A stretch of 64,000 nucleotides of DNA, from NCBI GenBank assembly GCA_946902875.1, contig OX336343.1:17841596-17905595 (forward strand). The letters run 5' to 3'. The DNA is from Nematopogon swammerdamellus (lineage: Eukaryota > Arthropoda > Insecta > Lepidoptera > Adelidae). The position numbers and the translations under genes were made by a program. Position 1 is the stretch's first letter. Every line of letters starts with the position of its first letter. Shown here in pieces: positions 1,545 through 49,000 of the stretch. The notes beneath the pieces are model-generated. The model made no database searches. It was not told the origin of the DNA and saw only the letters and a list, made by a program, of their open reading frames with translations.

Positions 1545-2550
1545 ATGGAGAAAATTGAACACCGAGCAGTGATGAAGTACCTCCATAAAAAATGCATGTC
1601 ACCGAAAGATATCCATCAAGATATCGTGAACACATTGGGGGAGTCTGCTCCATCGTATTCCAGTGTCAAAAAGTGGGTAGCTGAGTTTAAGCAGGGTCGG
1701 GAGAGCATTCAAGATGACGCTAGGAGCGGAAGGCCTTCGATGTCTACCACGAAGGAAAGCATCAATAAAATATGTGTTCTGATACTGAGTCACCGAAGAT
1801 TGACCATAAATAAGATAGCTGAGATCACAGGGATTAGTTATGGCCGGGTACAAAACATTATATCTGAAGAATTGGGGTTCCATAAGGTTTCTGCTCGTTG
1901 GGTCCCAAGATTGCTTTCAGCTGAACAAAAACGAGTTCGCTTCACAATTTCCCGCGATTGTTTGGAACTTTTTGAGGCAGATCCCGAGGATTTTTTGTGC
2001 CCTTTTTTGGATGAAAGCTGGGTTCACCACCATACTCCTGAATCAAAACAACAATCGAAGCAGTGGAAAAGATCTGGCTCATCCACTCCGAAGAAGGCTA
2101 AGGTCGTTTTGTCGACCAACAAAGACATGGTTTCAGTTTTCTGGGATGCGACGGGGATTATTTTCGTGAATTATTTACCAAAATGCCAAATTATCAATTC
2201 AAAATATTATTGCAACCTTTTGCGAAGACTTCGGGAAGAAATAAAAGAAAAAAGGCTGGGGTTGCTGCGGAAGAAAGTGTTGTTTCATCAAGATAATGCC
2301 GGGTTCACACTTCGGCTGAATCAATGTCTGAAATCCATAATTGTGGCTATGAAATATTGCCTTAAAAATAAATTTCCGAGCCACCTAGTGTTTTTTTTAT
2401 TTTGAAAAAGGTGGTAATCCGAGGGGGCTAAATCCGGCGAATAAGGTGCGTGGGCACCTTATTCGTCGGATTTAGCCCCCTCGGATTACCACCTTTTTCA
2501 AAATAAAAAAAACACTAGGTGGCTCGGAAATTTATTTTTAAGGCAATATT
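1545..2550 (+). pseudogene. Broken mariner-family transposase
   Basis: The reading frame from ATG 1545 stays open to 2405 (286 codons). Residues 1-110 match the paired helix-turn-helix DNA-binding part of mariner transposases. The DDE catalytic domain follows, with Asp156 in the context LDESWVHHH and Asp250 in HQDNA. Family members are about 340-350 residues and use a D,D34D triad. Here the frame leaves the family pattern just after residue 250 and then enters a 97-bp palindrome. The third Asp (context APSDYHLF) survives, but in another frame inside the right palindrome arm (about 2483-2485). The C-terminus beyond 2550 was not recognised. The copy cannot encode an active enzyme. It lies inside the 403-3005 element. 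Confidence 0.9.
2353..2550. repeat. Near-perfect 97-bp palindrome inside the mariner copy
   Basis: Arms 2353-2449 and 2454-2550 are inverted copies separated by 4 bp, with one mismatch noticed (around 2438/2465). The right arm is the mariner C-terminal coding sequence in sense orientation. The left arm is its reverse complement, placed between the second and third catalytic Asp. The outer 9 bases (aatattgcc) are also the expected sense codons, giving microhomology at the junction. Confidence 0.9.
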
Positions 2551-9354: not shown

Positions 9355-11090
9355 TTTTTGTTTTTATCTTTATTTTGTTTAAGGCTTTAGCCATTCCTGG
9401 CTATGCCAGCCCCATAGTAACTATATTGATTTTTTATTGTACTTCAGCACGATTCAACGCCTGTGACTTTACAAAAAAACTTAGTATGAATTCAAACTCC
9501 TCCCCCTGAGCTCGCCCCAAGGCTTCATGTAGGTACTTTAAAAAACAGGTTGAGTCGGTCTGTTCTTAAGTCTCTCAATAGCTTCTGCCTCAGTTCTCGG
9601 TTCCGGGCACATTCCAACAGTATATGGAGTAGGTCCTCTTCTATCCCACATATGCTACAGTTGGGTGATTGTGCTATCTTCATAAGGTACATTGTCTTAT
9701 TTGTTGGAATGTGTCCAGATCGTAGTCTCAGGCCCATTACAATTTCTGTTCTCGGTCTGTCGCTCTTGGCAAACCAGGGAATTTTTAACGGTTCACAATG
9801 CATTGTTCTGTACCATATACCTTTCTGCACTGATCTCTCATCGAAATATTGCTTCCACATATTATAAACAGTTCTTTTTTATTTCGGGTAGGTGGTCAGT
9901 GCAGAAAGTTTTACATTGACTAATTATTGCATCAGATCTACAAGCTTTACTAGCCAGGCAGTCAGCCTCCTCGTTGCCCGCAATACCAACGTGCGATGGA
10001 ATCCATTGTAGAGTTATGTTCTTATCTTCGGTGCTCATTTTATATATATCTTTTAATATTTCGTATGAAACCGATCTTCCAAGGTTGCCCTTCGTACAGG
10101 ACACGAGGTGTTGAAGTGCACTTTTTGAATCTGTGAGTATGACTGTCTTATTAGAACCGGTCGATGTGCTATACGAAAGGGCCTCTGAAATCGCAATTAG
10201 TTCAGCAGTCATGATAGGAACTTTTGCGGGTATGTTGATCTCCATCCCATCGTTGGTTTGCGGGTCCCAAAAGGCTGCCCCTGTCCCATTATTATTTTTT
10301 GAGCCATCTGTATAGATTTTGTAGTGTTCACTGTACATTTCCCTAATCATAAAGTCGGCTTTTTGTTTTATTTCAATTTTTGACTCATCTTTTTTCGGTT
10401 TATCTATACCTGGTACATGAGTATGAACGTCTAGTTGAATTTTAGAGGGCCAAACCTCTAATGTTTTGAATAGAACAATTTTCAATTTCCCAATCACTGA
10501 TGCAGCTATGACACTTGAGTAGAATGGGAGTATTCCTCCGTCGCCAGTAGGCATAGGTACATTTATCTAAAAGCTCTTGTAACAGCTTTATCAGTGGGTT
10601 TTCTGTGCGTGACTTCGTCTTCAAATAGTATTTACTGCCTAGGTATTGTCTTCGCACATGCAATGGTTGTATACATAAGTCACTCTGCATCACATGTATT
10701 GGTGTACTTTTGATGTATCCTCCACAAATTCTCATCGCTCTATTTTGTAGAGTGTTCATCTTATTGAAGTGACTTTGCGCACAGTGACCATACAAAAAAC
10801 TGCCATAATCCATTCTGCTTCTTATTAATGTTATGTATAATCGTCTTAATTGGATAGGATGAACACCCCACGACGACCCTGCCAGAACTTTAAGAACATT
10901 CATGTATTTCATTATTTTATTGCAGCTTTCATTTATGTGTTCACGCCATTTGAGTGATTGATCTAGCCAGACACCCAGAAATTTAACAGTTTGAGCTCTA
11001 ACAATGGGAATACTGTTCACCTTGACATTTATATTGGCTCTATTTCTACCTCGTGCATATATACATATTTTGGACTTTTCTGGAATATTT
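9355..11090 (-). mobile_element. I-clade-like LINE, 5'-truncated (RT thumb, RNase H, C-terminal zinc motif)
   Basis: The minus strand reads from about 11090 down. A reverse-transcriptase C-terminal part (PEKSKICIYARGR near the truncated end, then FLGVWLDQSLKW) is followed by an RNase H domain with the expected acidic and His landmarks (YTDGSK, LTDSKSALQHL, WIPSHVGIAGNEEAD). The C-terminal motif CSICGIEEDLLHILLEC closes the protein. RNase H plus this tail fits non-LTR elements of the I group. Three overlapping frames (10442-11020, 9862-10554, 9525-9860) show at least two frameshifts. A T-rich tract near 9352-9375 marks the 3' end. The truncated 5' end stops about 25 bp before the asparaginase start codon. 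Confidence 0.85.
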
Positions 11091-19842: not shown

Positions 19843-20290
19843 AATTATTGTGGGCCGATTTTGAAAATTCTTTTTTTTGTTTGAAAGGGGATAACCATGA
19901 GGTGGTTCCATTTTAATTTGATCGAGATCAGATTGGAAAGCGAGGCGGAATCGCGAGGCCGAAGGTCGAGCGATTGCGCCGAGTACATTAACAGCAAAAA
20001 ATTCAAAAAAAAAAATGTGAAATAAAAAACTATTTAAAAAAATATATAAAAAAGGCCTTCAAAAATGTATGAAATAAAGAAAAATCGAACCCTAGAGTTG
20101 AAGGCGGTGCTAAAGCAAGCAAAAATGATACATGAAAGAAAACATGCGTGGATGATATCCTTTGTGATTTGTGTAGCCTTCTTTAGCACCGCCTTCAACT
20201 CTAGGGTTTTTTTCCATTTTTTTAATTTCATAAATTTTTTAAGGCAGTTTTCATATTTTTTTTTACATAAAATGCTGACATTATTAGAAT
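19843..20290. repeat. Hairpin-bearing repeat, copy 1
   Basis: Contains a hairpin motif (gaggcggaatcgcgaggcc...gcgattgcgccgag, about 19942-19985). Further on are two inverted copies of ccctagagttgaaggcggtg (20087-20120 and 20180-20205) able to form a long stem. A second copy with the same order of parts is at 32035-32400. It is probably a fold-back element; no protein was recognised. Confidence 0.65.
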
Positions 20291-20419: not shown

Positions 20420-21030
20420 GAAATTACAAATAGTCCAGGAAACGAGGAAATTCCTTGTATGGGCTCTTCGGACTAATTCCTCTGTCGCTGAAACTTTGCA
20501 GTGTGATAGAGTAGGGTTTAAAATATACGTTTGACAAATTATCTAGGATATTTGATGTTTGGAAGTTAGGTATTAAAATGAATGAATGCCTAAAAATGAA
20601 AATCGCTTATAACTGCTGATGAAAAATTGCTCCGTCCGAAATTCCTTCGGTATATGATATTATATATTAATAAGAGTATATATTAACATTATCTAGGAAA
20701 ATTTCGATTTCGAATAGGCAGAAATTTAAAAATATCTATTTTGTATCACAACTTCTTCAGAAAAATTGCTCTGTCAATTTTAATTTTTTTATATGTCTTA
20801 ATTTATTTAAATATATCGGTTTTGACAATTATCTAGGAAATTTTCCATATCGATCACACCTTTACAGATTTTCGGCAATAATTCGCTGTGAAAAATTGCT
20901 CCGTCCGAAATTCTTTCGGAATATGATATTATATATTAATAAGAGTATACATACAACATTATCTAGGAAAATTTCGATTTCGAATAGGCAGAAATTGAAA
21001 ATACCTATTTTGTATCACAAATTCTTCAGA
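20420..21030 (+). repeat. Tandem array, ~269-bp period (forward copy)
   Basis: The block gaaaaattgctccgtccgaa recurs at 20621 and 20890 with intervening conserved motifs (attatctaggaaaatttcga, aggcagaaatt, tcttcagaaaaattg). The array begins at aattcctctgtcgctgaaac. An inverted copy is at 32890-33560. It is related in plan to the arrays at 54.4 and 60 kb. Confidence 0.75.
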
Positions 21031-21359
21031 AAAATTGACCATATAAATGCCAAAAGGCACCAACCCACAAATTGGTTAAAAATGAGTTAAATATACCAAT
21101 CGAGAGCTAATCACCCCTCTATTTTTTGCAGAAAAGACCCAGGCAGGCTACTTGGTATGATACTAATAGGTTTCTACACATTCGTCTAAGAACCATCCTC
21201 CAAATTGAGGTATATCGCAACACCAGAAAAGACTCATGCTACTTGATACTAGCTAACTGGTCAGATTTTTTTTGCGTAAAAGATCCAAGCGAGATGGACT
21301 TTTTTGTTTTTAATGAAGTACGCTAAAAGTATTTATCAAAACAGAGCCAAGATATCTGG

Positions 21360-22724: not shown

Positions 22725-23537
22725 TTGTTTGTCAGGGCAGATATTTGCTGTCGTCGCCTGCGCTGCCTTGAGGACTCCGAGCTATCAGTACTTTGGGTCC
22801 ACGAGGATCTGGGAACGGTCTCGCGGGTGTACGCCTGTCTGTACAGGTCGCACTCTGGTGATGCAGAGACAGCTCGGTTATTTGAGTACCTGAGTGGAGC
22901 GGCAGACAAAGTCCAAGAGCGGTTCCCTACCGCGGATTTGGTTCTTCTTGGAGACTTCAATGCCCATCACGAGGCATGGCTGGGTGTACTGAACAAGGTG
23001 CGACGGTACTTCACGCCGCCGGGCCAAAAACTGACGTTGTACAAAACACAGGTTAGGTCCTGCTTGGAGTACTGCTCGCACTTGTGGGATGGCTCAGCTA
23101 AATACCAGCTTGCGCCGCTAGACTCAATCCAGCGTCGTGCCGTGCGACTGGTGGGTGACCCCGTGGTGTCCCGCGACTTAGAACCACTGCAACTCCGTAG
23201 GGACGTCGGCTCCCTGAGTGTGTTCTATCGTTTATTTCATGGGGAGTGTTCGGAGGAGCTGTTTAACGCGATTCCGTCGTCCCCATTCCACCTCCGCACT
23301 ACGCGTACTGGGCAGGGGATGCACCCCTATTCAATCGACCTACCACGCATGCGCACCAACAGGTTCTGTAGGTCTTTTATTCACAGAACCGGGAAAATGT
23401 GGAACGCACTCCCTGCCCATCTATTTCCTCCCAAGTACAGCCTAGGGTTTTTCAAAAGGGGCGTGAAAAGGCTCCTGTCAGGCCGGCATGACATTCGCAA
23501 TCCCCGTGCATCACAGAATGTCCATGGGCATAGTTAG
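22725..23537 (+). pseudogene. Chimeric ORF: LINE endonuclease N-half fused to RT C-terminus
   Basis: The 270-codon frame starts in the endonuclease of copy A and, after LGDFNAHHEAWLG (about 22984), switches to VLNKVRRYFTP, the region just after the reverse-transcriptase domain of the same family, running to its normal stop. It arises because a 5'-truncated copy (22985-23595) inserted into the endonuclease in the same orientation and reading frame. The missing half of the endonuclease resumes at 23596 (SRRTDFAGRAAYDF). The product would lack all RT catalytic residues. Confidence 0.85.
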
Positions 23538-23595
23538 ACACCTACTTGTAGGTGTAACGATGCCACAAGTCGCGCTATCGATAATAAAAAAATGT
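22985..23595 (+). mobile_element. 5'-truncated CR1/Daphne-like LINE nested in copy A
   Basis: The 611-bp segment holds only the C-terminal part of the protein and a 3' tail ending aataaaaaaa. It is flanked by ctggg (22980-22984) and ctagg (23596-23600), a possible 5-bp duplication with one mismatch. The outer endonuclease codons are contiguous when it is removed. Confidence 0.8.
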
Positions 23596-24395
23596 CTAGG
23601 CTCCAGGAGAACTGACTTTGCGGGGAGAGCCGCCTACGACTTCGCTCTGACGCATGACCTGTCTCATCTGGTAGACCAGCCCACCAGGCTGCCAGAGATA
23701 GACGGTCATGAACCCTCTCTGCTGGATCTTCTGCTGACAACGAACCCCACTGGATATAAGGTCGCAGTAAGAGCCCCGCTGGGTTCCTCTGATCATTGTT
23801 TAGTGGGATCCACGGTGCCATCTTCGCCTCCTCAGTCCCGTAATGGAGGAACGCGTCGAATTTTGCACTACGCGTCAGCAGATTGGGATGGGATGCGAGA
23901 ACACTTCGCATCCTACCCTTGGAGAGAGATCTGCTTCAGTTCGGGCGATCTCTCTTTGCGGGGAACTCCAACCTGGACGATGGGGGTGCCACTCCCCCAT
24001 CCATACCTAGGTGCGAGAACTCCATGCCGGAAGTGCAGTTTCGACAACGGACTGTACGGGCGGAGCTTCTTTCCCTAGACGTCAGGAAGGCGAGTGGGCC
24101 GGATAGGATTCCTGCATTAGTGTTGAAAAGGTGTGCTCCCGAGCTGGTCCCAGTGCTGACGCGCCTATTCCGTCTCTCCTACTCCAATGGCCGTGCGCCG
24201 GCGGCCTGGAAATCTGCGTTTGTGCAAGCGATCCCTAAAAAGGGTGACCGCTCAAACCCGTCAAACTACCGACCTATAGCGATTACCTCCCTTCTCTGTA
24301 AGGTGATGGAGCGCATTATCAATACGCAGCTCATGAAGTACCTGGAGACGAATGACCTCATCAGCGATCGGCAATACGGCTTCCGGCCAAAACGA

Positions 24396-24740
24396 TTTTT
24401 TTTTATGGAAACTGACACGATTGGCTACATCACCCACAACGTCCGTGATGTCAGCCCATAACACCGGGTGAACTAGGTGCCATGTCAGTGCTTCCCCATT
24501 TGATCGTGCCGGCTACACTGAACTGGTCGGAAAACACAAACTATTTACATAGCCGTTTTGACCGACGTTTCATTCAGTGCGGTGGTACCAACCCGGGCGG
24601 GTTAAACCTTACCACCAAGTAAGATTAGGAGGAAAGGGACCTACAGTTTTACGAGGAATCCGAACCTCGGTCAGCCTCCTACGGTCAGCGGTCACCCATC
24701 CAAGTACTGACCGCGCCCAGCGTTGCTTAACATTCAATAG
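24396..24740 (-). mobile_element. 5S-derived SINE inserted in LINE copy A
   Basis: The minus-strand reading starts with a 5S-like block (gttaagcaacgct ... cagtacttggatgggtgacc, complement of 24680-24731). It continues through the B-box-like ggttcggattcc and the common tail, and ends in an A-run (T-run 24396-24404). It splits LINE codons for RPKR and SAGD. The tRNA-like leader seen in the copy at 40478 is absent here. Confidence 0.85.
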
Positions 24741-26023
24741 CGAATCTGCTGGTGATCTCCTAGCGTACGTCACTCACCTTTGGGGGGAATCGCTTGAAGG
24801 TCATGGTGAATCCTTGGCAATTGGCCTTGATATTGCCAAGGCATTTGATCGGGTTTGGCACAAGTCGCTCTTGGGCAAATTGCCGGCTTACGGACTTCCT
24901 TCTGGCCTCTGTGACTGGGTCGCCGACTTCCTACATGGGCGTAGCATTCAGGTCCTAGTGGACGGTTGCTCGTCGGACGCCATGTCAGTGAACGCCGGCG
25001 TACCACAAGGATCTGTGTTGTCACCCACGCTGTTTCTTCTACATATCAATGATATGCTGTCTCTGGGCAACATACATTGTTATGCGGATGACAGTACGGC
25101 ACACGGATCCTACACCAGTCACCCTTCAGCCAGTCGGGATATTGTGGATGAGAAGAGGCGAAGACTTGTGTCTGAGCTCGAACACACACTCGGCTCTATT
25201 TCCGAATGGGGCCGTAGTAATTTGGTCGAGTTCAACGCTTCCAAGACACAAGTTTGCGCGTTCAGTGTGAAGAGAGCGGCGTTCACACCGGCTCCTTCAT
25301 TCCAAGGCACGTCGCTTAAATTAAGCGAACACCTCGGGGTCCTCGGAGTCGAACTGTCGCACGACTTGAACTTTCGTCGCCATATCGAGGGGAAGGCCAA
25401 GCTGGCTTCTAAAAAGCTGGGCGTACTCAATAAGGTGCGACGGTACTTCACGCCGGACCAAAGGCTGCTTTTGTATAAATCGTAGATCAGGTCCTGCTTG
25501 GAGTACTGCTCGCACCTGTGGGATGGCTCTGCCAAATACCAGCTTGCGCCTCTGGACTCGATCCAGCGTCGAGCCGTGCGACTAGTGGGTGACCCCGAAG
25601 TGTCCCGCGATCTAGAACCACTGCAACACCGTAGGGATGTCGGCTCCCTAAGTGTGTTCTATCGCTTATTCCATGGGGAGTACTCGGAGGAGCTGTTTAA
25701 CGCAATCCCGCCGTCCCCTTTCCATCTCCGCACCACACGCACTGGGCAGGGATTGCATCCCTATACGCTGGACTTACCGCGAATGCGTACTAATCGATTC
25801 TGCAGATCATTCCTCTACAGAACCGGTAAACTCTGGAAAGCTCTCCCTGCTCATATATTTCCCCCCAAGTACAGTCTCGGGTCCTTCAAGAGGGGCGTGA
25901 ATGGGCACCTGTCAGGCCGGCATGGCATTCGCAACCCCCGCATACGACCGAATGTCCATGGGCGTCGTGAGACACCTTATGGGTGGCTCGGCGCCATATG
26001 TCGCGCTTTCAATAAAAAAAAAA

Positions 26024-27132
26024 CGTGCCTCCATTCTCTTCGCCTCAAGACTCTACCTGCAGCGGTCTTCATGCAAGAAGCATACAGCGCCTCCTGGCGG
26101 AAAGGAGAAGAGTCCGGTTGCCTAGGCGACGGGCTGTTGTGATCTGACACGTCCGAAAATACAAGCGGGAGCGGGCGGTTTTGTTCAAACATTTTGCTCT
26201 GGAAAAGATAAAATCCACCCTGATCGAGCGCGGCGCGGGTTCTGAGGGCTTGTTGCGACCTAATACGGTATAAGTATAGTGAGTGTAGTTCCCGAAGTGT
26301 GTGCGTAGCTGGGCCCAGCAGATCCTCGGACAACGGGACGTTTCCGTGCCGATCGACGACCACCACCTGAAGGACTGAGCTATCGAAGGTGCGGCTGCGG
26401 GCGGTGACATCAACATCCAGGTAGGAGGCACCACACCACCACACACTTTGCGCTACACCTCGAAGCTAGTCCGACGAATCCCGACGCTGCTCAGAAGGAG
26501 TCCGACACTGCCCTGCGTTCTCCCTGACGCCACCCAGACGCAGTCCGACATCTAAGCGAGCTCCGAAACCAGTCCGACGAATCCCGACGCTGCTCAGAAG
26601 GAGTCCGACACTGCCCTGCGTTCACCCGACGCCATCCAGACGCGGTCTGACATCTAAGCGAGCCTCGAAGCCAGTCCGACGAATCCCGACGCAGCTCGGA
26701 AGGAGCCCGACACTGCCCTACGTCCCCCGACGCCATCCTGACAGAGCCCGATACTGCCCTGCGTTCCCCGACGCCATCCAGACGGAGCCCGACACCTAAG
26801 CGAATTTCCGAAGTCAGCCAGACGGATCCAGACGCTACGCCAAACTAATCCTATCACGAAGCGCAAAATAAGAACTGAACTGACTGATAGATAACAGTAG
26901 AGAACACCCGTCGCCGCCGCGTAAATCAGCCTCGGGGAAACTTGTAAAAGTCCCAATCGTCTCTTATTTACCCTATTTCACCCCTTATGAAACTATCAAA
27001 CCCAGAATATAAGTACCGCTGCGGTGACGGCGTGATATTGCACATGCACAGTCGCACCCCCACCCAACTACAGTCCACCCACTAACACCACGGGGTGAGA
27101 ACGACTGTCGCGTACAGCGGCCGCATTTTGAG
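26024..27132. repeat. GC-rich region with a 102-103-bp tandem array
   Basis: The motif agtccgacgaatcccgacgc starts at 26468, 26571 and 26673, giving three units plus a degenerate fourth running to about 26830. The surrounding GC-rich sequence has no recognisable protein in either orientation. It sits between LINE copies A and B and may be a mobile-element leader or a satellite fragment. Confidence 0.7.
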
Positions 27133-28944
27133 TTTGTTTGAGATCAGACACAAGTCTTCGCCTCTTCATCCACAACATCCCGTCTGACTGAAGGGTCACT
27201 GGTATAGGATCCATGTGCTGTACTGTCATCCGTATAACAATTTAAGTTGCCGAGTGGCAGCATGTCATTGATATGCAGAAGAAACAGTGTTGGTGACAAG
27301 ACAACACAGATCCTTGCGGTACGCCGGCATTCACTGACATGGCGTCCGACGAGCAACCGTCCACTAGGACCTGAATGCTACGCCCATGTAGGAAGTCGGC
27401 GACCCAGTCGCAGAGGCCAGAAGGAAGTCCGTACGACGGAAGCTTGCCCAGAAACGATTTGTGCCAAACCCTGTCGAATGCCTTGGCAATATCGAGACCA
27501 ATTACCAAGAATTCACCATGTCCTTCAAGCGATTCCTCCCAAAGGTGAGTGACGTACGCTAGGAGATCACCTGCGGATCATTTTGGCCGGAAGCCATATT
27601 GCCGATCGCTGATGTTATTTGTCTCTAGGGTACGCCATGAGCTGGGCATTGATAATGCGCTCCATCACCTTGCAGAGTACGGAGGTAATCGCTATAGGTC
27701 GGTAGTTCGAACGGTTTGAGCGGTCAACCTTTTTGGGGACCGCTTGGACAAATGCAGATTTCCAGGCAGCCGGCAGACGGTAAGTGAAATTAGAGAGGCG
27801 GAAAAGGCGCGTTAGCACTGGAGCTAGCTCGGGAGCACACCGTTTCAGCACCAATGCAGGAATCCTATCCGGCCCATCGCCTTCCTGGTGTCTAGGGAGA
27901 TAAGCTCAGCCCGCACAGTTCGTTGTCGGAACTGTACTTCCGGCATGGAGTTCTCACACCTAGTTATGGATGGGGGGATGGCACCCCCATCGTCTAGGTT
28001 GGAGTTCTCTGCAAAGAGAGACACCAATAAGTCGGCTTTCTCCTTTGCGGAGTGGGCAAGTGAGCCCCCAGGACACTGTAGAGGTGGAAGGGAGGAGCGG
28101 TAGAAATTCGATACGACAGATTTGGCGAGAGACCAAAACTCACGGCTCCCAGTTGGGTGCTGGTTCAGCCTATCACCAACTCTGCCGATATGCTCGAATT
28201 TGGCCCTGGCGATAGCCCTCTTGCAGGATCTGGAGAGGCGGTTGTATTATTTCTTCAGTTCGGATACATTAGGATCGCGTCTGTCACGAGCGCACGACCA
28301 TGCACGATAAGCTGCGCCATTAGCTGCGACAGCTTCAGCACAGTCGCGGCTGTACCAGGCCTGGCTTTTACCACCGAGGCGCACGAGGGCGCTGGGAATG
28401 AACATCTCCATTCCCCCCCAGAACCACCTCGGCTACGGCATTGGCGCATTCCGGCGGATCATCCGAACTGAAGCATAGCTCTCTCCATGGGTAGGATGTG
28501 ATGTATTCTCGCATCCCGTCCCAATCCGCTGACACGTAGTGCCAAATTGGACGCATTCCTCCAGTACGAGACTGAGGAGGCAAAAATGGCACCGTGGACC
28601 CCACTAAACAGTGGTCAGAAAAGCCAAGAGGAGTGCTCATTGTGACTTTGTATCCAGCAGGGTTCGTTGTCAGCAGAAGATCCAGCACAGAGGGTGCATG
28701 ACCGTCCATGTCTGGCACTTTGGTAGGTTGGTCTACCAGTTGAGGCAGTTCATTCGTCAGGGCGAAGTCGTAGGCGGCTCTACCCTCGAAGTCAGTTCTC
28801 CCGGAGCCCAGCCACTTCTCGTGATGGGCATTAAAATCCCCAAGCAGAACCATATCCGCGGATATATATATATATAGGGAAACTACATGCACTTCATCTG
28901 CCGCTCTACTCAAGTGCTCGAATAATCGAGCTGTCCCCGCGTCG
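27133..28944 (-). mobile_element. CR1/Daphne-like LINE, copy B (main part)
   Basis: The minus strand carries the same family as copy A. Endonuclease (LLGDFNAHHEKWLG, FSDHCLVGS) is followed by a middle region and reverse transcriptase (KAFDRVWHKSFLGKL, GVPQGSVLS). The catalytic box here reads YTDD instead of YADD. A frameshift follows GSVLS, and the copy stops around 27133 before its C-terminus. A short (TA)n run interrupts it at about 28862-28876. Its 5' continuation lies beyond the Transib insertion at 31968-32030, with coordinates matching once one CGTCG is removed. Confidence 0.85.
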
Positions 28945-29633
28945 CACAGTGGTCTGGGAATCGAGCTCCATAGACATAGAACCTTAATGTCAGGAATAAA
29001 AATGAAAACAAATTTAATGTCTCTGGTATACCTCCCTTTATTTCATATTATAGTATGAAGGGTATAAGTAGCTCCACGAGTGAGAAAAAAAAAGTTTTGT
29101 TTTTTTTGTATGGATGAAAACACTTAAAGTAATTTTTTTTTTAACTGAATGAAACTGAAGGGTTGGTGCTCACATCTTCTATTGCACCTTACACGGCGAT
29201 CAAGATGACATACAATTCCTTCACCTTTGGGTGCCTATTTGCGCGTAGCAAACGTTTGAAATTTGGAATTTTCGATAAATTATTTTTCAAACCTTAGTCG
29301 TAATTTAATGAAGTTGCCTATCGCTTTGAATATGAAAATACTTTCATGTTCTTATTGTACTGAGTAGTACTGACAGTACAGTAATTAACCATATTTTATA
29401 GTAAACACAGCGTAGCACTGTTAAAATAATAACAATAACATACAACACACACAAGCGAGCGACAACTAATTAACGAGTTAGCGAAAACCGGTTTTTTCCA
29501 CTCGCAGCGCGTACTAATCCTCAACACATAACCAGTCCCATGCCTTCTTAGTTTCAGCGATATTCTTTCAGTAGCTTTTAGCACTTGTGCGCGCTAACAA
29601 CTATACTTATTACGTTCTATTTGTTTTCGTGCT

Positions 29634-30274
29634 ATGATGGAAGGTTTTGATACCAATTTGGACATTTTCGTGTTTGTGGCAAACAACAGTTGTTTCCCAC
29701 AGCCCAGTGCGTTGTTTGAAGTTTTTAGGAGTGCCCCTGATCTGTCAGAAAGTGAAAAGAAAGAACTGAAACAATTCTGTCAGACTTATGTGTGTTCGTT
29801 GAGGAACAAATGGATCTCGTGTAATCGCACGAGACATGCATTCACGAAGAAGTACGAGACGTGGCTACAAGAAAACATAAAATGGCCTGAGTTCATGAGG
29901 GAAAAGATGACACCTTCTTTAGTGTCAGTAGAGCGGCAACCATGTTCCAGTGACTTCGATGTAAATGAGGGTGCATCAACGTCCTCAAAACCAGAGACGT
30001 GCACTGTTGGAATATCACCAAGAGTTGTGAGTGAAAGGAAACCGTTCTCGGAACTAAGCCCTAAACAGAAGAGAAGGAGAGTGGAAGAGCTCCTAACACA
30101 TAGCACTGAAAGCCTCGCTCATGCAACTGTTTTAAGTGTGAACAACAAGGATGTGGCAGAAATAATAAAATTGGTCACAGAGCATCCCGAAGAGGCTACA
30201 AAGATAAAACAATTGTTGAAGCCCAAGAAAGCTGTGCCCGTATATTCCGTTGATAAAGCTTTAGGTATTTTGAC
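29634..30274 (+). pseudogene. Transib transposase N-terminus, left arm
   Basis: The frame opens at MMEGFDTNLDIFVFVANN and stays intact through SERKPFSELSPKQKRRR to VDKALGILT at the arm end. It then runs into antisense sequence of the opposite copy, so translated residues after about 214 are meaningless (the frame nominally ends at 30473). This part is the N-terminal region upstream of the catalytic core and carries no DDE residues. Membership of Transib is inferred from the element's ends and from the downstream motif seen in the other copy. Confidence 0.7.
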
Positions 30275-30275
30275 G

Positions 30276-31275
30276 CAGAGACGTAGAGGCACAAAGGAGC
30301 ACATAAAAATACTGGAATCATCTTTGTCCGCCATACTTTGCTTGTACAAACTTTGCCCTGAAGCACCATCAAAGCCCCACTTGGATATTAGTTTTAGTTC
30401 TTTGCCATCCAGCGAACATCCCAAACGTAGGAACTTTCCTAGCCTAGCAACAGTTTTGTCCAAAATTGCTTGAAGCTTTACTCTTACCGATCTTTCCGTG
30501 ATTTCTATTGTATCTTTTGGTGGGTAACACTCCTTCTTTGCCTCTAAGATGGCAGTATACGAAGGATAGAGTTGTACTCCTTCTTGTTTTGCACAAGCTC
30601 TTAATGTTGTATACTGCCACTTCGAAAGCTTCAACGACGTCAAAATACCTAAAGCTTTATCAACGGAATATACGGACACAGCTTTCTTGGGCTTCAACAA
30701 TTGTTTTATCTTTGTAGCCTCTTCGGGATGCTCTGTGACCAATTTTATAATTTCTGCCACATCCTTGTTGTTCACACTTAAAACAGTTGCATGAGCGAGG
30801 CTTTCAGTGCTATGCGTTAGGAGCTCTTCCACTCCCCTTATCTTCTGTTTAGGGCTTAGTTCCGAGAACGGTTTCCTTTCACTCACAACTCTTGGTGATA
30901 TTCCAACAGTGCACGTCTCTGGTTTTGAGGACGTTGAGGCTCATTTACACCGAAGTCACTGGAACATGGTTGCCGCTCTACTGACACTAAAGAAGGTGTC
31001 ATCTTTTCCCTCATGAACTCAGGCCATTTTATGTTTTCTTGCAGCCACGTCTCGTACTTCTTCGTGAATGCATGTCTCGTGCGATTACACGAGATCCATT
31101 TGTTCCTCAAGGAACACACATAAGTCTGACAGAATTGTTTCAGTTCTTTCTTTCCACTTTCTGACAGATCAAGGGCACTTCTAAAAACTTCAAACAACGC
31201 CCTGGGCTGTGAGAAACAACTATTATTTGCCACAAACACGAAAATTTCCAAATTAGTACCAAAACCTTCCATCAT
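30276..31275 (-). pseudogene. Transib transposase N-terminal half, right arm plus spacer
   Basis: Starts at 31275 (MMEGFGTNLEIF), with a small deletion and frameshift near 30930. It resumes at SERKPFSELSPKQK and, past the arm end, continues into the unique spacer with KLSKWQYTTLRACAKQEG and then KWGFDGASGQSLYKQ and SFVPLRL. The DG-containing block is in the expected place for the first catalytic Asp region of RAG1/Transib-like enzymes; this is family inference. The second Asp and the Glu are missing because the gene ends at the junction with the left arm at 30275. Confidence 0.7.
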
Positions 31276-31967
31276 AGCACGAAAACAAATAGAACGTAAT
31301 AAGTATAGTTGTTAGCGCACAAGTGCTAAAAGCTACTGAAAGAATTTCGCTGAAACTAAGAAGGCATGGGACTGGTTATTTGTTGGGGATTAGTACGCGA
31401 TGCGAGTGGAAAAAACCGGTTTTCACTAACTCGTTAATTAGTTGTCGCTCGCTTGTGTGTGTTGTATGTTATTCTTACAATTTTAACAGTGCTACGCTGT
31501 GTTTACTATAAAATATGGTTAGTTACTGTACTGTCAGTACTACTCAGTACAAAAACAACATGAGAAAAGTATTTTCATATTCAAAGCGATAGGCAACTTC
31601 ATTAAATTACGATTAAGGTTTAAAAAATAATTTATCGAAAATTCCAAATTTCAAACGTTTGCTACGCGCAAATAGGCACCCAAAGGTGAAGGAATTGTAT
31701 GTCATCTTGATCGCTGTGTAAGGTGCAATAGAAGATGTGAGCACCAGCCCTTCAGTTTCATTCAGTTAAAAAAAAAATTACTTTAAGTGTTTTCTTCCAT
31801 ACAAAAAAAAACTAAACTTTTTTTTTCTCACTCGTGGAGCTACTTATACCCTTCACACTATAATATGAAATAAAGGGAGGTATACCAGAGACATTAAATT
31901 TGTTTTCATTTTTATTCCTGACATTAAGGTTCTATGTCTATGGAGCTCGATTCCCAGACCACTGTGC

Positions 31968-32030
31968 GTCGCCTGAGTGCGACCTGTAGATACTTACAGG
32001 CGGACACACGCGACTCCGTCCCCAAGTGAA
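31968..32030 (-). mobile_element. LINE copy B, 5' remainder
   Basis: After the second CGTCG, the sequence cctgagtgcgacctgta continues the complement of the copy A endonuclease region near 22830-22855. It is lost after about 32030. Confidence 0.7.
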
Positions 32031-32034
32031 CCGA

Positions 32035-32400
32035 TTTTGATGATTCTTTTTTTATTTGAAAGCTGGTGCTTCCCGTGTGGTCCCATTTCAATTTCGTCAA
32101 GATCGGATTGAAAAGCGAGGCGGAATCGCGAGGCCAAAGGCCGAGCGATTCCGCCGAGTACATTAATAGCAAAAAATTACTAAAAAAACTGAAATAAAAA
32201 AATATTAAAAAAAATATAAAAACCGCCTTCAAAAATGTATGAAATAAAAAAAATCGAACCCTAGAGTTGAAGGCGGTGCTAAAGCAAGCAAAAATAACCG
32301 ACCGCCTTCAACTCTAGGGCTCGATTTTTTTTATTTCATACATTTTTGAAGGCGGTTTTTAATTTTTAAATAGTTTTTTTACAAAAATGTATACACTTTA
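32035..32400. repeat. Hairpin-bearing repeat, copy 2
   Basis: Same plan as 19843-20290: a gattttgatgattcttttttt start, then a palindrome gaggcggaatcgcgaggcc / ggccgagcgattccgccga (32119-32160). Inverted ccctagagttgaaggcggtg copies follow at 32258-32285 and 32300-32322. Confidence 0.7.
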
Positions 32401-32760: not shown

Positions 32761-32889
32761 CGTTGTTTTATTATATTGCGATACTCGAAACTACTCGAAA
32801 GTTTATGTTTAAGGGAGAAATTTTATTGGATAATATACAATTATATTATATTTTGATGTTCTGTGTCTAATAAGTTAATAAAAACAGAC

Positions 32890-33560
32890 GAAGCAATTTT
32901 TCACAGTGCTTGGTTTATTGCCAAAAATATGTAAAGGTGTGATCGATAAGGAAAATTTCCTAGATAATTGTGAAAAGCGATATATTTAAAGAAATTAGGA
33001 GATACAAAAAAAAAAAATATTGACAGAGTAATTTTTATAGGTATTTTCAAATTTCTGCCTGTTCGAAATCGAAATTTTCCTAGATAATGTTATATATATA
33101 CTCTTATTAATACATAATATCATATTCCGAAGGAATTTTGGACGGAGCAATTTTTCACAGCGAATTATTGCCGAAAATCTGTAAAGGTGTGATCGATAAG
33201 GAAAATTTCCTAGATAATTGTCAAAAGCGATATATTTAAATAAATTAAGACATATAATAAAATAAAAATTGACAGAGCAATTTTTCTGAAGAAGTTGTGA
33301 TACAAAATAGGTATTTTCAAATTTCTGCCTATTCTAAATCGAAATTTTCATAGATAATGTTATATATATAATCTTATTAATATATAATATCATATACCGA
33401 AGAAATTTCGGGCGGAGCAATTTTTCACCAGCAGTTATAAGCGATTTTCATGTTTAGGTATAAATACCTAACTTCCAAATATAAAAAATCCTAGATAATT
33501 TGTCAAACGTGTATTTTAAACCCTACGTTATCACACTGCAAAGTTTCAGCGACAGAGGAA
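32890..33560 (-). repeat. Tandem array, ~260-bp period (inverted copy)
   Basis: Complement of the array at 20420-21030: blocks gcaatttttcacagyg occur at about 32892 and 33147, and a third related block at 33416. It ends at cagcgacagaggaatta, the mirror of the start of the forward array. Confidence 0.75.
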
Positions 33561-35555: not shown

Positions 35556-38500
35556 ATGTTAACGAGCAAGCTGAAGTTCGCGTCGGCCGAATTGCAGAAC
35601 TTCAACTGGATCTTCAGCTCGGCGCCGTGCTTCCCGCTCGACGCCAGCCGAATTCGGATCATCAGCGAGCCCGCGCACTTCTATGAAGCGCTACTGCATC
35701 AGTTTCGTACGGCGAAGCGCCGAATTTCCGTCGCGAGCTTATACGTCGGGACCAGCGCACTCGAGAAGAGGTTACTTGAGGTTGTGAAAGAGAATGTGAA
35801 AAATAATAAAGACCTTCAGGTTTCCGTGTTAGTGGATTACCAGCGTGGGACGCGCGGGGAAATAAACTCCCGGACTTTGTTGGAAGATTTCGTGCGCGAG
35901 GACTCATCGCGATGCTCTGTGGCATTGTACCGGACGCCGAAGTTGAACGGTCTGCTCGGTTCGGTGCTTCCGGCTCGCTACAACGAGCTGGTGGGGCTCC
36001 AGCACATGAAGCTGTACATCTCGGACGACTCGGTGCTGCTGAGTGGTGCCAACTGCTCAAACGATTACTTCACGCAACGCCAGGACCGATACGTGCAGAT
36101 CCAGGACCGAGACCTCGCAGACTTCTACGCAGAGCTGATAGGTACGGACGCGTAAGTTTTTTGTTTTCTGTGTGATAGATAACTAATAAAATTATGTAAT
36201 ATGTTGAATGTTGAATGGAGCATAGTGTCACAGGATCTACTCAACATCATAAAAATTCTACTACAATATTTTTTTATCGAATACTAAGTAAGTATTTGTT
36301 ATAAATGTGTGGCGACATCTAGTGACAGTGCATGAAAGATCGATGACCTCTCACGACACTACGCGCAGTGAGATGGCACTGACGACCAAATCGTCAGATG
36401 CAATAAGTTTCCACAACACATTCTCGATCCAAAAAGTTACAATTGTTTTGTTTAAATAAAATGTGACGAACTCAAGTGTACCGATGTTACCTAAGACTGA
36501 AAAGAATAATTGAAATTAAATATCACATAATAGAAGTACAGCGGACATAAACAACATGCATGTGTGTGTGTGTGAGAATGTTTGTGCTACAGGTAAGGGA
36601 GCGTTCATAAACCATGTGACGGTTTTGGGGGGGGGGGGGGGGGGGGGGGTCCGGTTTTTGTCACCTAGGGGGGGGGGGGGGTCCAAAATTAGCCTAAAAT
36701 CCGTCACGTGGTTTATGAACGCTCCCTAATAGAGATCATGTGTGTGTGCGCAGGGGGGACACCCCAGCACATCGCACCGCCCGCGGAGTCCACTCACACA
36801 TACGCTCGAAAGTGTTGTCGCTTACACAATACATTCACCCGTGTCGCAGGTCAGACCTGGCACTCGGGATACAAGAGTGGGTCTCCTAAGGGTCTTGCCA
36901 TTCGCACCTCCCCTCGCTCCAAATGCGAATAATTCTGTCAGTGGAATTTATTAATAGATAAGGTAGCAGAAGTTGTGGTCAGAATCTGTGTGGAGGTCCG
37001 AGGTTCGAATCCGGTCGACATGAACCAATGAGTTTTTTGTGATGGAAAAATTTACATGGATACCTGCTACTTCACCGTTCGAAACCGGTGTAAATCTGCA
37101 GGACCCTTACCTTGCTCCTTATAGTGCATAATTCATCAAAGTCACAAGTACTTCAAAGTGAAATAATTGCAGAGACAGCGGATGCTATGCACTTCACTGC
37201 CAAGAAAACCGTTTCTTTTGAGAAATGGTTTATTTGGTTGTTTAATAATGTTTTGACATTTCCTCCGAATTGCAGAAGAGGTGAGCAGTTTCAGTCGACT
37301 GGTGGTGGCGGGTGAAGACGCCCGGGGTGCTCCAGCGAACACCCACACGCTCGCAGCGCACGCCACACAACGTGTCAATGATCTCATCGCTCGCTGGACC
37401 AGGAGACAGGAGGAAAAAATGCAGGCTGAAGGAGCGGGCCAAAGTTAGTGAATTTTTGTTTAAAGGAAAGCCCAAAATGCCGCTGTTGTCACCCATGTAA
37501 ATGTAGGTATCTAATATATCCATAGCAATTTATTAAGTAGGGTGTCACGAAAATTATTGTTTTATTATTAAATTTATTTTCATTATTGTTGTTCATTTTG
37601 AGGAACAAGCAGCCAAAGCTGGTGTGTTCATTATGTTCACTAGTGGTTTTTTTTATTTATTATTTTATTTCAATGGTGCTGCTTCAAATTGGAGTGTATT
37701 ATAATTTATTTTAAAAAATTGAGTGCAAGAATTTTATTTAGTCAATTTCAGTCGAAGAGACGGGAGGGGAAGCCCTAGGCGCCCGTACCTGGACCAGATC
37801 GGGCATGTGGTCAAAAAGGGTCAAGTGCATAGTACCCATAATCGATGAAAATAATTATATGAATAATTATATGAAGAACAGAGTGAAAATTAGAAGTGTG
37901 TCAGGAACGTGGTTAGTGGAAATTTGTTGTCTCTGACTACCATTTGAAACAGGCGTAACGCCATATGTATATTTTTATGGGTAAAGTAATGTACAGTAAA
38001 ACTTAGCATATTTAAGTGTGTGCCTTGATGACCTTGCTGAAACCAGCAAAATAAAAATTACCAGGAAGCGCCATACGAAGCACTGACTTAGGACAAGTAG
38101 AAGAACTCCTATCGCACTATCCCCCATTTGCATTTATGGCGTTTTGGTCTGCACTTCTTATTCTAGAATTTTACGTGTGTGTGTAAAATTTTAGCTTAAT
38201 GTGCATATGTGACAGAAAGACCATTTTGACACAGGGAAATGTAGAATGCAGGATCCTCCATGTAGGCTACGTAATGTCCTTGGAAAAACATGTAGCTTGT
38301 TTTGTTGTCTCTTCCAAAAAAATCCTTGATCCTTGTTTTCTGCTTCAAAAGGACCAGACACCTGGGTCTTCCCACTGATACAAATGGGGCAACTGGGCGT
38401 GCGTCAGGACGAGCTCGCAACGCTGAGGTTCCTGGCGACGACGCCGCGGGACGCCCGCTTACACCTCGCCACCGGGTACTTCAACCTGACGAGGGACTAC

Positions 38501-46069: not shown

Positions 46070-49000
46070 TCAGAAGCCCGCGTCCGGAGGCGGATCCGGC
46101 GGCAGATAGTGCAGCTCCTCCGTCGGCACGGAGAATATGTTGTAGAGAACCGCGAACAGTGTGCACGCGGCGTACGCGCCCAGCGCCGCCCACCACAGTA
46201 GCCGCTCCCACAGTCTCTGCTGAGCGTGCTTTAGAACTAACAGTCCGATGGTGAGGCCGGCTAGAGCGCCGGCTATATGGGCCGCGTACGACACCGGTGG
46301 CGCTTCTTTGGAGTAACGCGCGTGCACAGCAAAGCCTACATCGCACGATGCGACGGCGAGCGCGGCAACTAGACGAACGGCGCCGTAGCGCATCGCGTGG
46401 TAATTTAGAAGCGCGTTGGCTAGATGAGCGGCTAGCAGCGCATAGACGCCGCCTGACGCGCCGGCTAGACAGACGTCCGGATCTAGCACGGAGGCGGCGA
46501 GCGAGCCGCCGAGAACCCCCGCAAGGTACACGGCGCCGCAGCGGACCGCCCCGTGTACCATCTCGAGCGGAAGGCCGACGGCGAGCTGAACTAGCAGGTT
46601 GAAGGCGAGGTGCAGCCAGCCGGCGTGAACGACGCTGTAGGTGAGGAAGCGCCACGCCTCGCGCCGCTTGTCGGGCCGGTACACGAGCGGCGAGTCGACG
46701 GGCACGGGCCCGGCCGCAGCCGCCACTCCGCCCGCGCCGTGCGCGTACCACGCGAATACGCCCAGCTGCAACAACATTACATTTGATTAAATTATCGAAA
46801 TTACGTTCAGTGCACTCCTGAATCATCCCAGCCCACTTCAGCGTAGATTGAGGCACTTTATTAAGTAACATTTTCATTGATATTATAAACATAAGAATAT
46901 CATGTTTATGTGTTGGACGGGGTGTTTTCAATAAATTTACTGGTAAAAATTTACGGTACTATCGCTCGATACAAGTAGCCACAAATTCACCGATTTTTTT
47001 ATTTTGAAAGATTGTAAATTTTTTTATTAATTTTTTTATTGTAAGCTCGACATATGGCTCCGAAACATCCATGAGGTGTCTAACGGCGCCCATGGACATT
47101 CGGTCGTATGCGGGGGTTACGAATGCCACGCCGGCCTGACAGGTGCCCATTCACGCCCCTCTTGAAGGACCTGAGACTGTACTTGTTCATAAAGTTTTGA
47201 ATTTAAAAGCACCGTTCGGCGGTGGTTCGCCTTTTTTTTATTGAAAGCGCGACATTTTTTTTTTTATGGAAAATGTCACGGTTGGTTGGCTACATCAACT
47301 ACAACATCCGTGATGTTAGCCCATAACACCGGGTGAACTAGGTGCCATGTCAGTGCTTCCCTTCATTTCGCGCCGGCTACACTGAACTGGACGAAAAACA
47401 CGAACTATTTACAAAAGTTCTGCGTATTCTGGCGTCTCAGTCTCATCAAAATCGGTTCAGTAGCTCCGGAGATATTAGCGTGTGACCGACATACGGACAG
47501 ACAGACACCATAGAGTGATCCCTCTAAAACCAATATGCAATATAAAAAAATACTTCAGTACACACGCTATCCGTATTTAAATTCCATGTTAAAAAAAAAC
47601 TAAGTAGTATGTGATTATTGCTTCGCTGCACACATTTCATTATTTAATTTGGTTTGATAAGTATATATAAGGTCTTTCAAAATTAGTCAATAGTACTACG
47701 CTAAGGGGGGATTCTGTATCATGTAGGGAGTAAAACCTATATAAAATGTTTTGAACCTTGGGCTTTTTTTTTATGGAAAATATTTTTTTATGTATTTAAT
47801 AAAAAAATAGGTGGTTGATTTTTATAGCCTAATCCAAGGCCTAATCGATTCAGTTTCATAACAGTGACAAAAAAGTCTTCATTACCATTATGTATGTGTA
47901 AAAAAATCTAATTCTTTCTATTCCATACTAATAAAACTAAAATTATGGTTGTATGTAACCTAAGAAAAAAAGAGATCTATGTGTTGGAAGACTTTTTTGT
48001 TCCTGGCATGAAACTGAAACGATTAAGGAAAAATTTTTTTTTTACATTTTAGATGATTTTTTTTTTTTATAAAAAAAATCTTTGTTCTTCAAAAGTGATC
48101 TATTTCCGATACAGAACCCCCCCTTAGCGTACTATTAACTAATTTTGAAAGACCTTATATATTAATATCAACATCGCGCCTTCAAAACCTGAACCGTGCG
48201 CCGCGCCGCCGCGCCGCCGCGCGCGCCGGTGGTGGTGGTGGCGCGGCAAGCTTCCGGTGCCGACGCGAGACGCCGCGCGCCGAAGGCGACGCGAGCCCGC
48301 TGCCGCCGATACATCCATTGTCTATTTATTTATTGTAATCGACCGAATCCAAAAATACCTGACGGCTTTGTCGGCGCGCACGTCCGACCCGCCACCTTCA
48401 CGCGCCGCGCTCCGGTGGGTGTCGCCTTGTTTCGACAACGAATCGAACACTTGCCCGTTAAACATCAAAGGCAAGTTCACGTTTCAGACGGGGGACGTAG
48501 GTACGTAAATAATCCCTTCAGTTTTTTAGTTCAACAAATTTTAAAGTTCCCCGATGTCTGAGAACTAAGTTTCCGTGTAATTTGTGCGTCGTTGGGATAT
48601 ACGAAAATACCTATTAAATATTTAAACTAACTATTCCGCTTTCTTGTCTCGAACCGAAAACAATAAGTATCGATCCTTCCATTAATTTTAATTGGGGAAA
48701 CTTTTCCTAGATACTTCGCGCCGGTTGTTAAAACGTTTAAAATTGATGAGTTGCTACATACTTCCGCTCGTGCCGTGGGTGGTTTCAGTGGGTGGAATTA
48801 CTAATTCACTGGGCGATGTGAGATATAACAAAAAGGCATTTAAGCATTTACATAAAATATGGATAAAAATAAACGAAATTATAACGAATAATAATTATTC
48901 CTTTGAGGCGACATTTCAGCAGCTATACAGGTTGGACGACTTGAATGAATGAGGCTCGTGTCCAGCAGTCAAACTGTCCAATGAACCGATTAATATCAAA

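Follow-up and report, generated by a model that had tools for sequence, protein, structure and literature searches.

The Locus and Its Features

The window, i.e., the whole 64-kb stretch of DNA that was analysed, contains a two-headed Transib unit of 3022 bp at 28945–31966, which interrupts a LINE and is flanked on both sides by the same five bases (Table 1). Both ends of the unit read CACAGTG inwards, and the outermost 22 bp from 28945 are the exact reverse complement of 31945–31966. A separate 3′ end is absent, both ends being the 5′ end of the element: read from the right end, the unit consists of a 1691-bp Transib 5′ half, followed head-to-head by a second 5′ half of 1331 bp.

Table 1. Features of the two-headed Transib unit and its target site, with positions in the window.
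Feature	Position	Strand	Description
Target LINE, endonuclease region left of the insertion	28368–28939	−	Exo_endo_phos_2, E 2.4e-10; frame resumes at 31972 to about 32020
Left target-site duplication	28940–28944		CGTCG
Left arm, copy A of the Transib 5′ end	28945–30275	+	1331 bp; terminus, leader, and first 214 transposase codons
Left-arm open frame, transposase N-terminus (P0001)	29634–30275	+	214 codons; open frame extends to 30473 through inverted sequence
Head-to-head junction	30275/30276		Joins the 1331-bp half to the 1691-bp half
Unique centre	30276–30637	−	362 bp; right copy continuing into the catalytic core, with KWGFDGAS; ends after PLRL
Right arm, copy B of this 5′ end	30638–31966	−	1329 bp
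Transposase N-terminal frame of the right arm	30883–31275	−	ATG at 31275; frame shifted by a 4-bp deletion near 30940
Right target-site duplication	31967–31971		CGTCG

When the arms were aligned with each other in inverted orientation, BLAST gave 96.5% identity with 37 mismatches and 4 gap openings. Global alignment gave 37 substitutions over the 1331 left-arm positions, 18 of them in the leader (689 bp) and 19 in the coding sequence (642 bp); with one edge position included, the count is 38 (22 transitions and 16 transversions). The first difference between the arms is at position 111, and the outer 110 bp of both ends are identical. The first-pass annotation of this DNA had described two inverted copies, each of about 1.33 kb, of one end with leader and transposase start, and a 362-bp centre continuing the right copy only; the former is borne out by the arm alignment and the ATGs at 29634 (+) and 31275 (−), and the latter by P0002 to P0006, which are co-linear through the centre and beyond. 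Its span of 28945..31967 was correct at the left edge but one base too long at the right, where the right CGTCG begins at 31967.

The 3′ end of the parent element was not found in the window: when the end sequence was compared by BLAST with the masked window, the single match covered 18 bp at 37567–37584 (E 0.022) and was taken as chance. After the unit had been masked, tblastn with the 32 relatives as queries detected no further Transib pieces in the window.

Transposase Fragments and Family Assignment

Transib termini follow a CACWRTG-type consensus. The unit has RSS-heptamer-like termini beginning with CAC, namely CACAGTG at both ends, and CAC is reported to be conserved at Transib and RAG ends (PMC8355894). 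Its target-site duplication, CGTCG, is GC-rich and 5 bp long, and a GC bias of Transib target duplications has been reported (PMC8289069). The transposase is homologous to the Transib/RAG1 core, with only the N-terminal part and the motif of the first catalytic Asp present; the inner right copy together with the centre matches HzTransib (PDB 6pqn) with an E value of 2.8e-38 over query residues 71–203 (133 residues), including KWGFDGAS. The RAG1/Transib hallmarks pointed out at first pass are supported by the ends, the duplication, and the match to 6pqn. The catalytic residues of HzTransib are D126, D225, and E436 (PMC6941560), and the Asp of KWGFDGAS is probably the counterpart of the first residue of this triad.

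The right copy ends after PLRL, where P0002, P0003, and P0004 continue with VCG, P0005 with ICG, and P0006 with TSG; since the copy is broken off at this point, the later catalytic residues are missing. A complete DDE transposase is not present, as both frames leave the transposase before the second catalytic residue and the right one is also frame-shifted; neither frame is able to encode a whole transposase, and any movement therefore required a helper. The right-hand frame has 32 homologues, and all 6 of those with an organism name are from Lepidoptera; the host, too, is a moth or butterfly. Pfam searches with the transposase fragments gave no match above the cut-offs.

Target Site

When the flanks are joined without the unit and one CGTCG is kept, the LINE frame is continuous and reads SRVCPPVSIYRSHSGDAGTARLFEHLSRAADEV, and another LINE copy in the window reads SRVYACLYRSHSGDAETARLFEYLSGAADKV. 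At the DNA level, the LINE copy at 22810–22984 aligns across the join with no gap there (74% over 192 columns, with 3 gap openings elsewhere). The chance of a 5-bp match is about 1 in 1024 with even base use, and the similarity between the flanks stops about one base past the duplication. Because the LINE is continuous and the join is free of gaps, both outer edges are accounted for by one insertion. It had been claimed at first pass that the target duplication is genuine and that removal of the unit restores the LINE target; CGTCG at both outer ends agrees with the first claim, and the continuous frame together with the ungapped join to 22810–22984 agrees with the second. A TA run at 28860–28875, in the target LINE near the insertion, is missing from the LINE copy at 22810–22984. 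Remnants of LINEs that belong to the same kind as the interrupted one and carry reverse transcriptase are located at 24577–25485 (+) and 22725–26142.

Proposed Origin and Movement of the Unit

It is proposed, from this one locus and with a probability of about 0.68, that the unit derives from a lepidopteran Transib of the RAG1 lineage, is two-headed and non-autonomous, and was cut and pasted whole by transposase made elsewhere. The observed structure, with the same terminus facing outward at both ends, would have formed when the 5′ half was inverted head-to-head, or when two 5′ halves were joined, and the 3′ half was lost. Transposase from an intact copy elsewhere would have paired the identical ends and excised the unit, which would then have been pasted into an old LINE to give the 5-bp CGTCG duplication; afterwards, the arms would have decayed independently through point mutations and small indels. 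Most likely, the gene would have suffered an internal break that was then processed by fold-back repair or by end joining. Fold-back priming at double-strand breaks is described as an established source of inverted duplications (PMC10622511, PMC7467729), and if it took place in a Transib that was broken or had been excised, the product would be a linear molecule bounded on either side by the 5′ terminus and open to direct integration by transposase. The junction at 30275/30276 shows no convincing microhomology, one or two of its bases may be filler, and it does not distinguish fold-back repair from end joining.

Movement of the unit as a whole is supported by the CACAGTG ends, the GC-rich 5-bp duplication, the LINE that is continuous after removal, and the presence of the same end in both halves; counting against it are the single copy seen and the lower efficiency of homotypic pairs relative to 5′/3′ pairs for ProtoRAG. 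The earlier statement that a single event integrated the rearranged palindrome itself holds as an inference from the duplication and the restorable LINE but not as proof, as one locus is also compatible with rebuilding in place. Among the other accounts of the whole history, such rebuilding is the strongest competitor, though it is considered unlikely. An ordinary Transib would have made the CGTCG duplication, and a later break followed by templated repair or gene conversion would have swapped its 3′ half for an inverted copy of a 5′ half, with the outer switch inside terminal sequence common to both ends. It has been reported that inverted ends grow within Galileo, where 38 of 170 copies are of the “two recombinant TIR” kind, TIR1-F1-F1-TIR2 (PMC3573991), and HzTransib has been described with long TIRs, which would give room for the switch (PMC1852546). 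However, two switches would be needed, one of them exactly within the terminal repeat, with the target and the duplication left intact, and no trace of a foreign 3′ terminus is present, the outer 110 bp of both ends being identical. Galileo copies that are chimeric from two subfamilies are reported to lack matching duplications (PMC3573991), whereas the duplications of the Transib unit match.

Two insertions in opposite orientation, joined by deletion of both 3′ halves and the intervening DNA, would account for two diverged copies of one end and for the unequal halves, but the flanks form a continuous LINE frame with an identical 5-bp duplication, and insertions at separate sites would need an exact chance meeting at one target; this history is highly improbable and was rejected on the continuous LINE target. 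Palindromes are a frequent class of assembly artefact, but an assembly fold-back should give near-identical arms and mirrored flanks, whereas 37 substitutions and 4 gap openings separate the arms, the flanks are not mirrored, and each arm departs from the homologues at residues of its own. An artefact of this kind is the least probable of the explanations considered, with hardly any weight left to it, and was rejected on the arm divergence and the non-mirrored flanks. In a comparison with nine homologues, made where they cover the site, the 10 amino-acid differences between the arms include 6 that lean to a change in the right arm, 3 that lean to a change in the left arm, and 1 that is undecided; at three of the six right-arm-leaning differences (10, 41, and 149), no homologue shown departs from the residue of the left arm. 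The two arms have separate histories.

As to how the unit had first been formed, its halves may have come from two different Transib copies placed end to end, not from one copy folded back. This origin is compatible with the preferred reading and is a tentative possibility, somewhat doubtful at present. It is weakly favoured by the proportion of nonsynonymous changes (10 of the 19 coding substitutions against 13.7 expected, P 0.051) and by the outermost 110 bp being free of differences (uncorrected P 0.036), a pattern as if the copies had begun to diverge before either lost its use. However, both P values are marginal, the longest run without a difference is of ordinary length (P 0.85), and the distribution of the amino-acid changes (6 right, 3 left, and 1 undecided) fits decay after joining.

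Pairing of Identical Ends in the RAG1/Transib Lineage

Most Transib families, HzTransib among them, are reported to have symmetric TIRs (PMC8289069); the TIRs have symmetric spacers of 20–22 bp, with 12/23-like asymmetry in a few families (PMC8355894), and the 5′ and 3′ TIRs of Anopheles Transibs, though imperfect, are described as nearly identical at the population level (PMC3442997). For ProtoRAG, pairs of 5′/5′ or 3′/3′ TIRs moderately lowered recombination ex vivo, and 5′/5′ cleavage was lowered too (PMC8289069). The first-pass annotation had presented the use of two same ends as surprising for Transib, which is overstated given the symmetric Transib TIRs and the working 5′/5′ pairs of ProtoRAG (PMC8289069). 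With the ProtoRAG 5′/5′ substrate, too, an enzyme of the RAG lineage acts on one end that is present twice, but that substrate was an engineered plasmid, used in cells and in vitro, whereas the Transib unit is a natural insertion (PMC8289069).

Since the ends are identical over 110 bp, no end asymmetry was required if the unit moved as such. In that case, a RAG1-lineage transposase would have brought two identical ends into synapsis and integrated them, a natural experiment that would bear on the origin of the 12/23 asymmetry in V(D)J recombination. How far same-end pairing is noteworthy here hinges on the 3′ end of the parent Transib.

Comparison with Known Elements

HzTransib from Helicoverpa zea (PDB 6pqn and five further entries), also lepidopteran, has a homologous transposase core and a likewise 5-bp GC-rich duplication, GCTCG, compared with CGTCG in the unit (PMC1852546). 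It differs in being full-length at 3518 bp (PMC1852546), whereas the unit, at 3022 bp, carries one end twice, with no second kind of end, and is without the later catalytic residues. In the “two recombinant TIR” copies of Galileo from Drosophila mojavensis, the TIRs are likewise extended by inverted inner sequence, up to about 1.2 kb; however, Galileo belongs to the P superfamily, makes 7-bp duplications, has ends that are long anyway, and shows this structure in 38 of 170 copies, whereas the Transib unit is known from one locus (PMC3573991). Elements of the Galileo/Foldback type have a P-superfamily transposase and a 7-bp duplication, and the unit, with a Transib transposase and 5 bp, does not belong to them. 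Mu killer of maize and these Galileo copies are similar to the unit in plan, and inverted-repeat derivatives of DNA transposons are already known.

Within the portions of the literature on Transib, foldback, inverted-duplication, and two-ended transposons that were covered, no two-headed Transib was found, which does not show its absence from print. The exact 22-bp end gave 0 matches in viral_contigs, protein scans of viral_contigs gave 18 and 38 pattern matches with 0 relatives in either set, and there were 0 relatives among 79 pattern matches in genome_contigs and 0 in phages; these collections hold phages, viruses, bacteria, and archaea, and misses in them say little about insects. The chimeric 255-aa frame matched 32 proteins, and seven local alignments extend past the junction, where the relatives have ordinary Transib sequence; the junction tail alone gave nothing better than E 0.85 against proteins. 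A second case of the inverted junction among these proteins was ruled out, the relatives being ordinary past the junction and the E values of the tail at least 0.85.

Possible Hairpin RNA

The outer ends carry the family leader facing inwards, presumably with a promoter, so transcription from either end would give a putative self-complementary RNA, its stem 1.33 kb long and its loop 362 nt. In the predicted fold of a whole-unit transcript, 1292 of 1400 pairs are arm-to-arm and the MFE is −2391.6 kcal/mol, a value that stands by itself with no shuffle control. On this model, a hairpin RNA with a 1.33-kb stem from the unit is possible.

The long double-stranded RNA suggested at first pass has a precedent in maize, where Mu killer, an inverted-repeat derivative of MuDR, silences MuDR; its hairpin model has been disputed, with silencing linked to short antisense transcripts from within Mu killer (PMC3440606). 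In Mu killer, part of the transposase gene is duplicated in inverted orientation and the same terminal region occurs twice (PMC3440606); the Transib unit likewise has an inverted duplication of its transposase gene, with one end present twice. The inversion point lies about 1.3 kb into the gene in Mu killer and 1.33 kb from the left end in the unit (PMC3440606). However, Mu killer belongs to the Mutator superfamily, comes from a plant, and has been shown to silence MuDR, whereas the unit is known from sequence alone (PMC3440606). A term search of the text of PMC3440606 found no mention of a target duplication of Mu killer. The unit may be an animal counterpart of Mu killer, that is, a transposon derivative making RNA that silences its own family. 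A mobile silencer of this kind in an animal, spreading by the transposase of its parent and repressing the parent Transib through siRNAs, is quite improbable; if this reading were true, it would mean that a RAG1-lineage transposase needs no end difference in nature.

Neighbouring Features of the Window

A repeat at 32031–32380 adjoins the target LINE on the right and has a relative at 19855–20263, with 85% identity over 275 bp to 19855–20126. It contains an 80-nt inverted repeat (32198–32277 and 32301–32380, 90% complementary, with a 23-nt loop) and may represent a small hairpin-forming repeat family. Another interspersed repeat is located at 32887–33400 and 20615–21037; its part at 33037–33400 is 95% identical to 21008–20647 (minus), and a diverged tandem copy is present at 32887–33158.

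Other mobile elements in the window include a Mariner-like transposase at 1545–2405 (+), with a Mos1-type HTH and Transposase_1 in an open frame of 286 aa, and a LINE remnant at 9862–11020 (−), with an RNase H domain in 9862–10554. Host exons at 35556–36155 (+) encode a PLD-domain protein with weak Pfam scores, possibly a phosphatidylglycerophosphate synthase. Further host exons at 46070–46777 (−) encode a rhomboid protease that closely resembles lepidopteran Rhomboid-related protein 3; among the best 120 of 884 matches, four lepidopteran proteins show 93–95% identity, the best of them covering 66% of the query, and the other 116 show at most 67% identity.
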